A stretch of DNA of 45,750 bases from Caldisericota bacterium (GCA_034717215.1 JAYELD010000039.1:1-45750); one strand, 5' to 3'; shown: positions 7,288-18,837, numbered from the stretch's first letter. Notes: a model not told the origin generated them from the letters alone. A program made the numbers and translations.

Positions 7288-7329
7288 CAAATTAAATCAT
7301 ATAAACAAACCCTCATAAAAAACAGTTTC

Positions 7330-7336
7330 GCCTAAC
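7330..7336 (-). other. Core-site-like heptamer downstream of the TrmO gene
   Basis: On the minus strand this reads GTTAGGC, matching the integron core site GTTRRRY. It lies 28 bases past the TrmO stop. A matching inverse core at a suitable distance was not found, so it is at most half of a recombination site or the outer edge of the cassette-like block. Confidence 0.25.
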
Positions 7337-7364
7337 GTCCCGTTGTTATCAAAAGTCGCACAAA

Positions 7365-7850
7365 TCATTTTATAAATCTACCATCATCTTTTGATGTTGA
7401 AAGTTTATCTAAATTTTTCTCAAGCCATCCTCTTTTCTCCGTTTCTCTTATATCAAATTCTGGAACATAAGGTTTTATATCCAAAAGAGGAGTTCCTTCT
7501 ATAATATCTATATCTTGAATATGAAGTATATTCTCTTCAACTCTGACAAGCCGTACTATTGAGATACCAATAGAGTTTGGTCTACTTGGAGCTCGCGTCG
7601 CAAAAACTCCACGTACCTCATTGTCCATATATGGTTTCACCGTTAATGGTGAACCTTTGGATAAATGGAAATGGTATACTAAAATAATATGCGAGAAGCC
7701 CTCAATATCTTTTAGGCCTTCAGCATATTTTGTAAATAGCTCAACCGTTCCATTAACATTCTTAGCACCTGCAGGTTGTATGGGAGTTCCCTTAGGTTCT
7801 TTAAATGAAGAATGAATGACCCCAATTGGTTTGTACTTTATTTCATTCAT
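7365..7850 (-). CDS. trmO: tRNA (N6-threonylcarbamoyladenosine-37)-N6-methyltransferase, TrmO/YaeB family
   Basis: A 161-residue protein of the UPF0066/TrmO family, which methylates the t6A37 of some tRNAs using S-adenosylmethionine. The family's conserved blocks are clear: YKPIGVIHS at the N-terminus, the GFSHIILVYHF strand, and RGVFATRAP-SRPNSIG, the cofactor-binding signature. Start 7850 (MNEIKY) is preferred because AAGGAAGTGG lies upstream; a longer start at 7871 would put that site inside the gene. It is the last of a run of minus-strand genes with attC-like sequences between some of them. Confidence 0.88.
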   Translation of the reverse strand: MNEIKYKPIGVIHSSFKEPKGTPIQPAGAKNVNGTVELFTKYAEGLKDIEGFSHIILVYHFHLSKGSPLTVKPYMDNEVRGVFATRAPSRPNSIGISIVRLVRVEENILHIQDIDIIEGTPLLDIKPYVPEFDIRETEKRGWLEKNLDKLSTSKDDGRFIK

Positions 7851-7878
7851 AATTTCCACTTCCTTATACATACAATTT

Positions 7879-7998
7879 TAGTAACGTTTTACGGGCGAAA
7901 GAAGTTACCAAAAGCAATTTAGGTAAAGTAAAGAAAGCCTTTTATCCGTTATTCTATGTCCTTGAGGGCAAAGTTATAAGGCAGCCGCAAAGTTCTAA
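7879..7998 (-). other. Weak attC-like sequence downstream of the DUF3795 gene
   Basis: The stretch begins with an AAC triplet (7883-7885) followed by GTTTTACGG, and ends with CCGCAAAG next to a GTT triplet (7992-7994), so its ends can pair imperfectly. The outer heptamers do not match the RYYYAAC/GTTRRRY consensus. It resembles the site at 8826-8906 in both arms (AACGTTTT...CGG and CCGCAAAG). It could be a degraded recombination site or unrelated. Confidence 0.25.
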
Positions 7999-8014
7999 GC
8001 TCCGCCTATGATTT

Positions 8015-8485
8015 TTATTTGGGCTTTGCATACCAATATTTTTCCTTTTTAAGAAATTCTCCAATTCCTTGTTTACGGATTTTTCTTATATTTTTTATAT
8101 GAGCATCGCCATGGCCCAGCTTTAAAAAATCCAGTTTTTCGCACGTTTCAAATTCCTCACATTCCCAACAACCATCAATCCCTTTTTTCTGGCAGCATTT
8201 TCTAATTTTACAGAAAGGTGGGCCTCCGCCATCTTTGCAGATCTTTCTGCAGCGGAGTTTTACCATCGCTCCTAACACTTCATAGCATTGCTGATAGTTA
8301 TTGAATGTCTTAAAGAATGAGATTTCTGATAAAGCTTCTGCTGTTTTGTCAAATCTTACTCCTTTCAGTTCTTTTCTGAGATCTCTTGCCAAGTCAGCAA
8401 TCTTTCCTTTATAATTGGGACAATCCCCGCAGTAAAGACCACAGTATGCAATTAAGTTTTTATTTTCTTTATTACTATTCCCCAT
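8015..8485 (-). CDS. DUF3795-type cysteine-rich protein
   Basis: A 156-residue soluble protein matching the DUF3795 pattern: an N-terminal AYCGLYCGDCP block (Cys15, Cys19, Cys22) and a second cysteine cluster with CRKIC, GPPFC, KCCQKKG and CWECEEFETC. The cysteines suggest a metal or iron-sulfur site, common in anaerobes, but the function is unknown. The ribosome binding site GGGAGGTGA precedes ATG 8485. A 340-base untranslated region upstream contains a copy of the promoter/leader block also found before the flavin reductase gene. Confidence 0.8.
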   Translation of the reverse strand: MGNSNKENKNLIAYCGLYCGDCPNYKGKIADLARDLRKELKGVRFDKTAEALSEISFFKTFNNYQQCYEVLGAMVKLRCRKICKDGGGPPFCKIRKCCQKKGIDGCWECEEFETCEKLDFLKLGHGDAHIKNIRKIRKQGIGEFLKKEKYWYAKPK

Positions 8486-8643
8486 CTCTTCACCTCCCTG
8501 TTGAATTATTTCTGCACCTTTAAATCTTCTTGTTTTAAAAGCAGAGTCAGAATTTTATATACATCGTTTATATCCGAATGGTTCAGATATCATTCCAGTT
8601 TATCAACATATACGAGTAATTCACATATACATCCCTTCTAGAC

Positions 8644-8705
8644 TCTCCCTTTTACTCTCGTAAAACCCCTCATTATTTTATACTCCACAATTTTTTGTAG
8701 TCAAG
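8644..8705 (-). promoter_or_regulatory. Promoter/leader block, copy A (matches 11152-11213)
   Basis: On the minus strand this 62-base block holds TTGACT, a 16-base spacer and TATAAA, then GTTTTACGAGA and an AAAGGGAGA ribosome-binding-like end. It is 55 of 62 identical to the block before the flavin reductase gene. The nearest possible ATG is followed within two codons by a stop, so no gene starts at its end; it may drive the DUF3795 gene about 160 bases further on. I see nothing else in 8486-8820. Confidence 0.55.
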
Positions 8706-8825
8706 TATGTTTAGAGAAAATGACTTACCTGCTCGGGAGGAACACACTAAAATATCTTTTATATAATAATATGAATAAAGTTGCTAAAAAGAAGCTCCTA
8801 CATCTAAAAAACCATTCTTAATTTT

Positions 8826-8906
8826 ATACAACGTTTTCGGCTTTTGTCTAAATTTTGCAAAGCAAAATTTAGACAAACAAAGCGAACCGCAAAGACTGTG
8901 TTAGCT
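8826..8906 (-). other. attC-like palindromic site downstream of the ICMT-like gene
   Basis: A perfect 16-base inverted repeat (8843-8858 with 8862-8877, three-base loop) is flanked by TTTTCGG on one side and CCGCAAAG on the other, and by AAC (8830-8832) and GTT (8900-8902) triplets. The 81-base span and the paired AAC/GTT ends fit integron attC sites, but the outer heptamers ATACAAC and GTTAGCT each deviate from consensus. A plain hairpin or transcription terminator is the alternative. Confidence 0.4.
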
Positions 8907-8930
8907 ACAACACAAGTGAAATGCTTTTAC

Positions 8931-9470
8931 TCAATTCTTTTTCCGTAGGCGTGGTATCAGAAATGGAGTTTTCCTCTTGTACTCTAGGTATTCAAAACCA
9001 AATCTCTCCTCTAATTCTGTTTCATCAACCATTTTATTATATACCATGAGTAACATTGCAAAGATCAAAGCTAACCCAACCGTAGAAAGCGAACCACTCC
9101 AGATAGCAATTCCTAGATAGAATATAATAGTTCCCAAGGACATTGGGTTTCGGCAATAACTGTAAGGCCTTTGTACAACCAATTTCTGTGTAGGGATCAT
9201 CGGTACCGGTGTTCCACGACCGACGAAAAACTGGACTTGTATAGACCACACAGCAAATAACAACCCCATACTGATAAATAGCAAGCCAATAATATGGTTT
9301 ATTGCTCCATAAACAAATGTTTGGAAGTGAAACCACTTATCAATATGGGAAGATGCTGTGATAAGAAAAAACGGAATTGCAACTACAAAAAATATTCCTC
9401 CCAGAAACAGAACAATAACTCGTTGTTTCTTACTATATTCACGTTCAGCCCATTTTTTGAATCTACTCAT
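8931..9470 (-). CDS. Isoprenylcysteine carboxyl methyltransferase/phospholipid methyltransferase-like membrane protein
   Basis: A 179-residue membrane protein with four to five hydrophobic segments and the ICMT/PEMT signature near the C-terminus: RPYSYCRNPMSLG (cofactor and substrate region) and E-LEERFG-EYLEYKR. Bacterial members methylate lipids or other small membrane substrates; the substrate here is unknown. Start 9470 is chosen because AGAGGTGC lies just upstream. An extension to 9506 would run into the attC-like site. It is one of several single genes separated by palindromic sites. Confidence 0.82.
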   Translation of the reverse strand: MSRFKKWAEREYSKKQRVIVLFLGGIFFVVAIPFFLITASSHIDKWFHFQTFVYGAINHIIGLLFISMGLLFAVWSIQVQFFVGRGTPVPMIPTQKLVVQRPYSYCRNPMSLGTIIFYLGIAIWSGSLSTVGLALIFAMLLMVYNKMVDETELEERFGFEYLEYKRKTPFLIPRLRKKN

Positions 9471-9504
9471 ATGCACCTCTTCATGGCTCAAAACTAAGCA
9501 TGTC

Positions 9505-9597
9505 ACCTAACATCTCCATTATATACGGCTGCACCTAAAGGAAACAATGTCCCGAAGAGAAGGGACATTAACCTGCAGCGTATATACTAAGTTAAAC
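9505..9597 (-). other. Integron attC-like recombination site
   Basis: This 93-base palindromic element lies between two minus-strand genes, 34 bases past the upstream stop. Its ends are ACCTAAC (9505-9511) and GTTAAAC (9591-9597), exact matches to RYYYAAC and GTTRRRY. Inside, TATATACGGCTGCA (9520-9533) pairs with TGCAGCGTATATA (9574-9586) except for one extra G in the left arm, like the extrahelical base of attC sites. An 8-base central stem (9546-9553 with 9562-9569) closes an 8-base loop. No integrase gene is in the window. Confidence 0.65.
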
Positions 9598-9631
9598 GAT
9601 AGCACGAATGAGAATTTATTAAACTTCATTA

Positions 9632-10273
9632 TCATGACTTCCCTCCTATTTGCCAGCCATTTTCTTCCCATGTCCTTCTCATCACAAGATTGCGTTTGAG
9701 ATACTCATCAACGACATCTTTAGATACCTGATTCAAAGGACAAGAAAAATTGATGCATTCAGAACAAGTATATTTTCGTAAAGTCCAAACAAACATTATA
9801 CCTCCCCATACAGCAAGGAAAGTAAAAATGTATTGCTTTCCGATAATCAAAAATATAAATGGATAAATAAACAATATAATAAAACCAATTATAAGTTGAA
9901 CTTTTTCCGAGTTACTCATTGGCTCTGGATGATATTTCCAAACCTTGAGAAAACCATAATTGGCGATACAGTGTAATATTTTCCTTTTCTCAGCATAATA
10001 AGGGCAATGACTGCAAAGGATACGAATCTCCCAGAAATTAAAGAAGATAATCATAAAACCAACTTCTCCCAGAATATACCAACCATAGCCACCCACTATC
10101 ATCCCAATAAAAGCTGGAATGGCAAAGGTCCAGAAAAGACCCATAAAATGAAACAAATCTCCTGAATTGTAACGACACTTTAAACGACTAGCAAGAGGGC
10201 AATCTTTACATTCAGAAAGCGCTCTCCAGCAACATGTGTTGTAGGGATTATTCGTCTGTTCTTGTTTTGTCAT
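9632..10273 (-). CDS. Cysteine-rich four-helix membrane protein, unknown function
   Basis: A 213-residue protein. The N-terminus holds a cysteine set (CCW, CKDC, LKC; about 14-34), followed by two hydrophobic helices (about 43-82), a CSHCPYY motif, two more helices (about 128-165) and a C-terminal CSECINFSCP cluster near 170-180. The clusters suggest metal or Fe-S binding at the membrane surface. I do not recognise a named family. AGAGGATGA lies upstream of ATG 10273. The attC-like site immediately downstream makes it a candidate gene cassette. Confidence 0.75.
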   Translation of the reverse strand: MTKQEQTNNPYNTCCWRALSECKDCPLASRLKCRYNSGDLFHFMGLFWTFAIPAFIGMIVGGYGWYILGEVGFMIIFFNFWEIRILCSHCPYYAEKRKILHCIANYGFLKVWKYHPEPMSNSEKVQLIIGFIILFIYPFIFLIIGKQYIFTFLAVWGGIMFVWTLRKYTCSECINFSCPLNQVSKDVVDEYLKRNLVMRRTWEENGWQIGGKS

Positions 10274-11151: not shown

Positions 11152-11213
11152 TCTCCTTTTTATTCTCGTAAAACACCTTATTATTTTATATCCCACAATT
11201 TTTTATAGTCAAG
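11152..11213 (-). promoter_or_regulatory. Promoter/leader block, copy B (flavin reductase)
   Basis: On the minus strand: TTGACT, 16-base spacer, TATAAA, then GTTTTACGAGA and the gene's own AAAGGAG site. It matches 8644-8705 at 55 of 62 positions. Placement directly before a start codon indicates this is the functional parent. Confidence 0.6.
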
Positions 11214-15673: not shown

Positions 15674-16012
15674 GTTCGTTGTTTTCTTTTTGCGGACACT
15701 GTGCAGTCAACGGTAGTCATATAGTCCCACCCTCAGTTACCAGCCAGCCAAACAACACAGACAGCTCGCTCATAACAAACCTATTCCTTTCGCAGACTGC
15801 AAACAGCGGCTGGCAAGAAAGAATGTTCCCCACCCGGAAGAAAAAATACATTACCATTTATTCAATATAGATTTTTGATAATTCGATTTGACATTTTGAT
15901 TTTTAAAAAAAAGATCTAAAATAAAAATGAATATAATAAAATTATTCTTAGAAGCTGAAATGAATAATGTAAATATTAGAATTAAAAGATAAAAATTATA
16001 AAGGAGGCTAAA

Positions 16013-18306: not shown

Positions 18307-18837
18307 TTATTCTTTTGCGCCAGCGTTTTTTAGCAAAGATATTATTTCTATACACCTTTTTTGACAAGCGAACATTAAAGCAGTTTTACCATATTTATCT
18401 TTTGCATTAACATCCACCCCGCTTTCTATAAGTAGCTTAACTACATCCGCATACTTCCTGTAAGAAGCTGCCATTAATGCAGTTATACCATCATTGGCTT
18501 TTATATTAACATCTGCGCCGTTTTCTATCAGTAGCTTTACTACATCTATATATCCTTCAAAAGAAACCCGTATTAAAGCAGTCCAACCGTCATTGGATTT
18601 TTCATTAATATTTGCACCGTTTTCTATTAATAGCTTTACTGCCGCTGTCTGTCCATTTACAGAAGTATACATTAAGGGAGTCATACCCTTATTATCTTTC
18701 GTGTTAACATTTGCACCGTTTTCTAAAGCTTCTTTTACTCCTGCTATATTACCATTTTTTGCTGCATTCAATAAAGATTCGTTTAATTTTGCAGCTTGTT
18801 TCTTTGCTCCTGCTTTTTTAAAAAAATTTAAGCCCAT
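18307..18837 (-). CDS. Ankyrin-repeat protein
   Basis: A 176-residue protein with four ankyrin repeats (about 37-66, 70-99, 103-132, 136-165), each with the NGADVN-x-K-xNDG-TAL pattern. A short basic N-terminus precedes them, and no signal peptide or other domain is present. It should be a cytoplasmic protein-binding scaffold; the partner is unknown. GGGAGA lies upstream of ATG 18837. It sits 12 bases from a broken repressor gene in a phage-like region. Confidence 0.88.
   Translation of the reverse strand: MGLNFFKKAGAKKQAAKLNESLLNAAKNGNIAGVKEALENGANVNTKDNKGMTPLMYTSVNGQTAAVKLLIENGANINEKSNDGWTALIRVSFEGYIDVVKLLIENGADVNIKANDGITALMAASYRKYADVVKLLIESGVDVNAKDKYGKTALMFACQKRCIEIISLLKNAGAKE

Follow-up and report, generated by a model that had tools for sequence, protein, structure and literature searches.

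Genes and attC-like sites in the window

The window analysed here is a 45.75-kb stretch of Caldisericota DNA, contig C39 of its own genome (G000; 1.49 Mb, 184 contigs, 95.9% complete), and it carries four minus-strand genes in a row, from 10273 down to 7365, with attC-like sites between and after them. The first-pass annotation, made from the sequence alone, had read this block as integron-like cassettes without an integrase. In agreement with that reading, and on firmer ground than it had claimed, we found three sites supported by a covariance model and a fourth that has collapsed, placed after genes on the same strand, and no IntI-like gene in the genome. The genes are short and functionally unrelated, as had been stated, encoding TrmO, a DUF3795 protein, an ICMT-like protein and a cysteine-rich (Cys-rich) membrane protein; the last had no family match in Pfam or NCBIfam. 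The genes and the sites, with their R'' and R' boxes, are as follows.

9632..10273, minus strand: cassette gene 1, cysteine-rich membrane protein, 213 aa
9505..9597, minus strand: S1, attC-like site after gene 1; R'' GTTTAAC at 9591-9597, R' GTTAGGT at 9505-9511
8931..9470, minus strand: cassette gene 2, isoprenylcysteine/phospholipid methyltransferase-like protein (ICMT/PEMT, PF04191), 179 aa from the ATG at 9470
8826..8906, minus strand: S2, attC-like site after gene 2; R'' AGCTAAC at 8900-8906, R' GTTGTAT at 8826-8832
8015..8485, minus strand: cassette gene 3, DUF3795 protein, 156 aa
7879..7956, minus strand: S3, attC-like site after gene 3; R' GTTACTA at 7879-7885, R'' decayed (GAATAAC)
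7365..7871, minus strand: cassette gene 4, TrmO (tRNA-t6A37 methyltransferase), 168 aa; TIGR00104 at 137 bits, over the cut-off
7330..7351, minus strand: S4, collapsed site; TGATAAC AACGGGAC GTTAGGC, hairpin lost

S1 is a true palindrome with exact ACCTAAC...GTTAAAC ends, arms of 8 and 5 bp, one unpaired base and a central hairpin, and its DNA fold gave z of about -4.9 and -4.0. We then scanned for palindromes in which RYYYAAC and GTTRRRY enclose complementary arms, and scored each of them. S1 scored 11, as against 0.005 such sites per shuffled window. In 510 kb of own and same-genus sequence, with some sequence of the wider family, a score of at least 11 was reached at two sites only, S1 and G004:C12:7426-7508, and by none of about 5,100 sites bounded by nine control motif pairs. 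Both the fold and the motif-palindrome test thus bear out the palindrome with exact attC-type ends and a central stem-loop that had been proposed at 9505-9597. The single unpaired G described in one of its arms is present, but it lies in the arm and strand opposite to those of the canonical extrahelical base for minus-strand genes, so that by itself it is no evidence for attC.

A covariance model (R2) was built from 10 sites of G003, G004, G007, G011 and G013, none of them from the window. With filters off, its top three matches in the window were S3, S2 and S1, all of full length, on the minus strand and in gene sense. The scores of 43.5, 22.7 and 15.3 bits, respectively, reverse the earlier opinion that S1 alone was convincing. 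The membership of S3 in the site family is established (E 2.3e-9), and the site is conserved in G004; it is now mispaired and folds poorly, the segment 7876-7999 being no better folded than its shuffles. The candidate first drawn at 7879-7998 is therefore a real site whose right border was misplaced and belongs at 7956. The membership of S2, another early candidate, is well supported by a strong hairpin (z about -5) and its R2 match (E 0.0015). For S1, E was 0.19 over the whole window and 0.013 over 3.2 kb; the site is supported by its position, strand, exact boxes and the independent palindrome test. No R2 match was obtained at S4. The flank of its R' box, CGTTAGGCGAAACTG (7323-7337, minus strand), agrees at every position with the consensus derived from sites in the relatives, and S4 occurs in G004 too, with one change. 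Because box and flank match this consensus without a mismatch, we read S4 as a site without its former hairpin, and the lone GTTAGGC reported at 7330-7336 as its R' box. S3, S2 and S1 begin 58, 24 and 34 nt after the stops of the DUF3795, ICMT and Cys-rich genes, and only 2.9% of the position/strand combinations of the window lie within 60 nt after a same-strand stop.

The site family in related genomes

Homologs of the G004-type site were found across the window's bacterial family, in G011:C5 (two), G011:C61 (two), G007:C5 (two), G013:C28 (two), G003 and G012, together with a second copy in G004. Read in gene sense, the family consensus is RYYYAAC-AG-CGGATAAAAG ... CTTTTATCCG-CAAAAC-GTTAKRY. 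The relatives' sites have 10-bp arms, spacers of 2 nt after R'' and 6 nt before R', and an interior that often forms two small hairpins; this inner part is conserved in sequence. No extrahelical base was present in the 10-bp arms of the 10 relatives' sites, and the asymmetry of the sites lies in their unequal spacers. The fold shows covariation, with 19 double-change cells in R2 versus 7.1 in shuffled and 2-6 in slid controls.

A search for more attC-like sites, one of the checks first suggested for the locus, was productive in relatives, where R2 gave 40 matches, frequently paired on one contig and spread over 16 of 54 genomes from the phylum. The polarity of sites relative to genes is evident as well, since 22 of the 30 relatives' sites examined follow a same-strand gene and 6 of the 30 precede the end of an opposite-strand gene. 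The flanks of TrmO homologs in G001, G012 and G037 carried no site, and a search of Rfam gave no match. R2 was run over the own genome and the phylum with filters under which weak sites drop out; in the own genome, S3 and four weaker places came back, and even S2 was missed. A weak R2 match of 19.5 bits at G000:C115:26980-27059 is a possible further site of the own genome. Elsewhere in the window, at 15737-15830, a 94-nt element starts at a GTTACCA box; it is 89% identical in G004, where it stands directly after an intact attC-like site, and occurs twice in G002:C35. It is possibly the head of another cassette.

Integrase and attI-like sequence beside arrays in relatives

An integrase gene lies directly upstream of the array in G011:C5 and G013:C28, and a C-terminal remnant lies upstream of the array in G007:C5, with a second, broken copy on contig C13 of the same genome. 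In G011:C5, the integrase is followed by a gene, a site, the genes for a DNA methylase, an SNase-like protein and an MjaI-type endonuclease, and another site. In G013:C28, the frameshift-split integrase gene is followed by small genes including TM2, a site, HNH, a site, a gene, a weak third site and an McrB-like ATPase gene. The cassette genes of the relatives, namely methylase, MjaI endonuclease, HNH, TM2, McrB-like ATPase and GNAT, are likewise short and unrelated. Between integrase and array, G011 and G007 share an attI-like sequence that is identical at 111 of 118 positions and diverges exactly after GTTAG, while G011 and G013 are identical at 60 of 81 positions and G013 also has GTTAGGCGA. 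This sequence fits what would be expected of attI with an insertion point at G/TTRRRY. Homologous arrays that carry an integrase and attI in related genera thus back the cassette-block reading of the window.

Palindromes after genes invite a simpler explanation, in which the sites are dispersed elements of the repetitive extragenic palindrome or miniature inverted-repeat transposable element kind, or transcription terminators, that stand after genes by chance and have no cassette function. Their 3' position, hairpin folds and conserved inner part are all compatible with this idea. We nevertheless regard it as very unlikely, since the RYYYAAC and GTTRRRY end boxes are kept, unlike in palindromes with the nine control motif pairs, and since arrays adjoin an integrase and an attI-like sequence whose similarity ends exactly at GTTAG. 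Terminators are further disfavoured by the lack of a T-run at the sites.

The G011 integrase has 353 aa and an N-terminal HARP-like extension, and Tyr325 is its predicted catalytic residue. It matched the IntI model TIGR02249 at 1.3e-65 and 221.8 bits, under the cut-off of 265, and its best NCBIfam match over cut-off was NF040815 (XerA_Arch) at 242.6 bits. The match to TIGR02249 falls into two stretches that skip model positions of about 178-233, and the distance from KDR to HxLRH is 62 residues, as in Xer proteins, compared with 103 in IntI1. Alignment, model gap and score, and motif spacing agree that the protein is without the IntI-specific insert (I2 region; the term IntI-specific additional domain is used as in PMC9668308). 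An I2-less integrase gene or remnant is found upstream of arrays in all three genera examined. In the tree, the integrase groups with IntI1 (support 100/99), and a grouping with the XerA-like proteins of the phylum was rejected (approximately unbiased test, p-AU 0.0003). Two viral contigs, L238 (6010-6798) and L239, encode recombinases that share 49% and 43% identity, respectively, with the G011 integrase and likewise have no IntI insert; these are mobile-element contigs, and no R2 site was found near the recombinases.

A classical integron with a full IntI, I2 included, could alternatively have built the arrays, the I2-less recombinase being an unrelated neighbour. A frame-broken recombinase at G052:C210:53601-54205 matches TIGR02249 (153-259) across the IntI-specific region and is likely a true IntI in another class of the phylum. 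Because this piece spans the insert region of the model, true IntIs may exist in the phylum. However, the genome G052 that carries it belongs to that other class and has no R2 site, and a TIGR02249 search of the phylum (limit 1e-15, stretches scored separately) found no gene over the IntI cut-off within the bacterial family of the window. Given also the I2-less genes or remnants upstream of arrays in three genera, this origin of the arrays appears improbable to us. In the own genome, the three recombinases found were all Xer-like and none reached the IntI cut-off.

A probable remnant cassette array and its relation to known systems

We consider it very likely that the window block is a remnant cassette array, or cluster of attC sites lacking an integrase (CALIN, as used in PMC9668308 and with IntegronFinder), from an integron family carried by related genera of the phylum. 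In these relatives, an IntI-like tyrosine recombinase without I2, encoded beside an attI-like site, would act on attC folded into a single-stranded hairpin, cutting its GTTRRRY core box and joining it to attI. Genes would be added singly, all facing the same way. Strand and direction would be marked by the unequal spacers (2 nt following R'', 6 nt preceding R') in place of the extrahelical bases that are docked by the I2 region in classical integrons (PMC7790495). The absence of I2 and the absence of an extrahelical base fit each other, and the two may be causally linked. In the lineage of the window, the integrase would have gone and the sites would be decaying, S4 having collapsed, S3 become mispaired and S1 diverged. 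With the integrase gone and the sites in decay, the four genes would now be fixed.

Several observations weigh against this interpretation. Recombination, its use of single strands and the polarity from unequal spacers are inferences from sequence. The integrase is intact-looking only in G011 of the three relatives, being frameshift-split in G013 and fragmentary in G007. Its tree holds one IntI only and has long branches. S1 is weak when taken alone, its E of 0.19 in the window corresponding to about 6 when scaled to the whole genome. A classical attC model (R1), built from 10 plasmid attCs, gave no match at S1-S4. The covariance check once proposed for 9505-9597 thus gave no match with this model, and with R2 the site ranked third in the window. 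R1 fails on several known divergent attCs too, so little weight attaches to its silence. The complementarity of R'' to the preceding R' fits S1/S2 and S3/S4 but not S2/S3, and with this mixed outcome it was dropped as a proof of cassette circles.

The comparison within the genus adds a further point of this kind. The syntenic contig G004:C12, from a species of the same genus, keeps TrmO, DUF3795, S3 and S4, and is without 1.8 kb bearing the ICMT and Cys-rich genes, S1 and S2. Gene content among relatives thus varies, as a cassette array might be expected to do from the first-pass annotation, but the break does not fall at the core sites. The junction is an 11-bp direct repeat, TATATCCGAAT, with copies near 8571 and 10362, and not a core box. 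With this junction, G004 was unusable as an empty/filled site test, and the gain or loss is no demonstration of cassette movement. The difference has the look of either a deletion in G004 or an insertion of something other than a cassette. It could even be argued that the block is an ordinary minus-strand cluster in which the ICMT and Cys-rich genes entered together on a single 1.8-kb piece, or were lost from G004, through short-repeat recombination, so that S3 would be the sole true site. The repeat at the junction and the weak R2 match of S1 speak for this account. S2, however, is significant alone, S1 passes the independent motif-palindrome test, both lie 24-34 nt past genes, and an older cassette array could also have lost the piece in G004 by short-repeat deletion, which leaves this account with little probability in our view.

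On the reading of the block as a remnant array, three cassettes are predicted from the R' boxes of neighbouring sites, with the cut placed after the G of each box.

8832..9510, minus strand: predicted cassette of the ICMT/PEMT gene, 679 bp, bounded by R' of S1 and R' of S2
7885..8831, minus strand: predicted cassette of the DUF3795 gene, 947 bp, bounded by R' of S2 and R' of S3
7336..7884, minus strand: predicted cassette of the TrmO gene, 549 bp, bounded by R' of S3 and R' of S4

The Cys-rich gene is absent from the 53 other genomes of the phylum, and has homologs of 72% identity in one Kryptoniota and one Bathyarchaeota metagenome-assembled genome (MAG). Being absent elsewhere in the phylum and yet so similar to genes of distant MAGs, it was probably acquired from afar. 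In the Kryptoniota MAG (L063, 2568-5700), array-like palindromes with GCCTAAC/GTTATCT boxes lie between short genes, and a PEMT gene adjoins the Cys-rich homolog, the same two gene types as in the window in a different order; these palindromes gave no R2 match. In the Bathyarchaeota MAG (L067, 4213-5651), the Cys-rich membrane gene has a flavin reductase gene as its neighbour, just as in the window, and the two products may be functional partners. A 62-nt direct repeat, 89% identical, lies upstream of the DUF3795 and flavin reductase genes of the window (8644-8705 and 11152-11213). On the minus strand it resembles a sigma-70 promoter (TTGACT-17-TATAAA), and more copies occur in G004. A 99-nt tandem repeat in four copies at 18363-18758, inside the gene 18307-18837, encodes ankyrin-like repeats.

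Like a CALIN, the window has several attC-like sites, one after each same-strand gene, and no integrase detected in the genome; unlike one, its sites are decayed and their family goes undetected by the classical plasmid attC model. With the integron as described for bacteria and archaea (PMC9668308), the family shares a tyrosine recombinase on the IntI1 side, an adjacent attI-like site, a breakpoint inside GTTRRRY, and an array of unrelated cassettes with palindromic GTTRRRY/RYYYAAC sites. It differs in an integrase that lacks the IntI-specific insert, carries the HARP-like extension and reads in the direction of the array, and in sites without extrahelical arm bases, with 2/6 nt spacers and a two-hairpin interior. 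XerA, XerC and XerD resemble the integrase in the length from KDR to HxLRH, and its best NCBIfam match over cut-off is the XerA_Arch model, whereas the tree separates them from it and no Xer gene of the phylum was seen beside an array. Integrative mobile elements exploiting Xer (IMEX), such as CTXphi (PMC7790495), are alike in using a folded single-stranded site and a recombinase without I2, the use of single strands being presumed in our case. In contrast to IMEX, the system described here encodes its recombinase along with the array, and its elements are gene cassettes instead of phage genomes. No account of an integron of this type turned up in the open-licence papers searched.

The I2 insert is regarded as what made integron integrases out of Xer-like recombinases by enabling them to act on folded single strands, and the absence of natural intermediates was named as a limit in a directed-evolution study (PMC7790495). 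Tentatively, the recombinase described here might belong to an IntI lineage that never acquired I2, rather than one that lost it, and so represent a living stage between double- and single-strand recombination that takes its direction from unequal spacers, the window being a decaying array of this kind; we hold this view with considerable doubt. If the reading of the block as a remnant of this integron family is true, searches of the IntegronFinder type, which require the IntI-specific domain and a classical attC model, would miss an integron class. Moreover, a natural recombinase on the IntI side without I2, beside attI and hairpin-bearing cassettes, would make the question of I2 directly testable.

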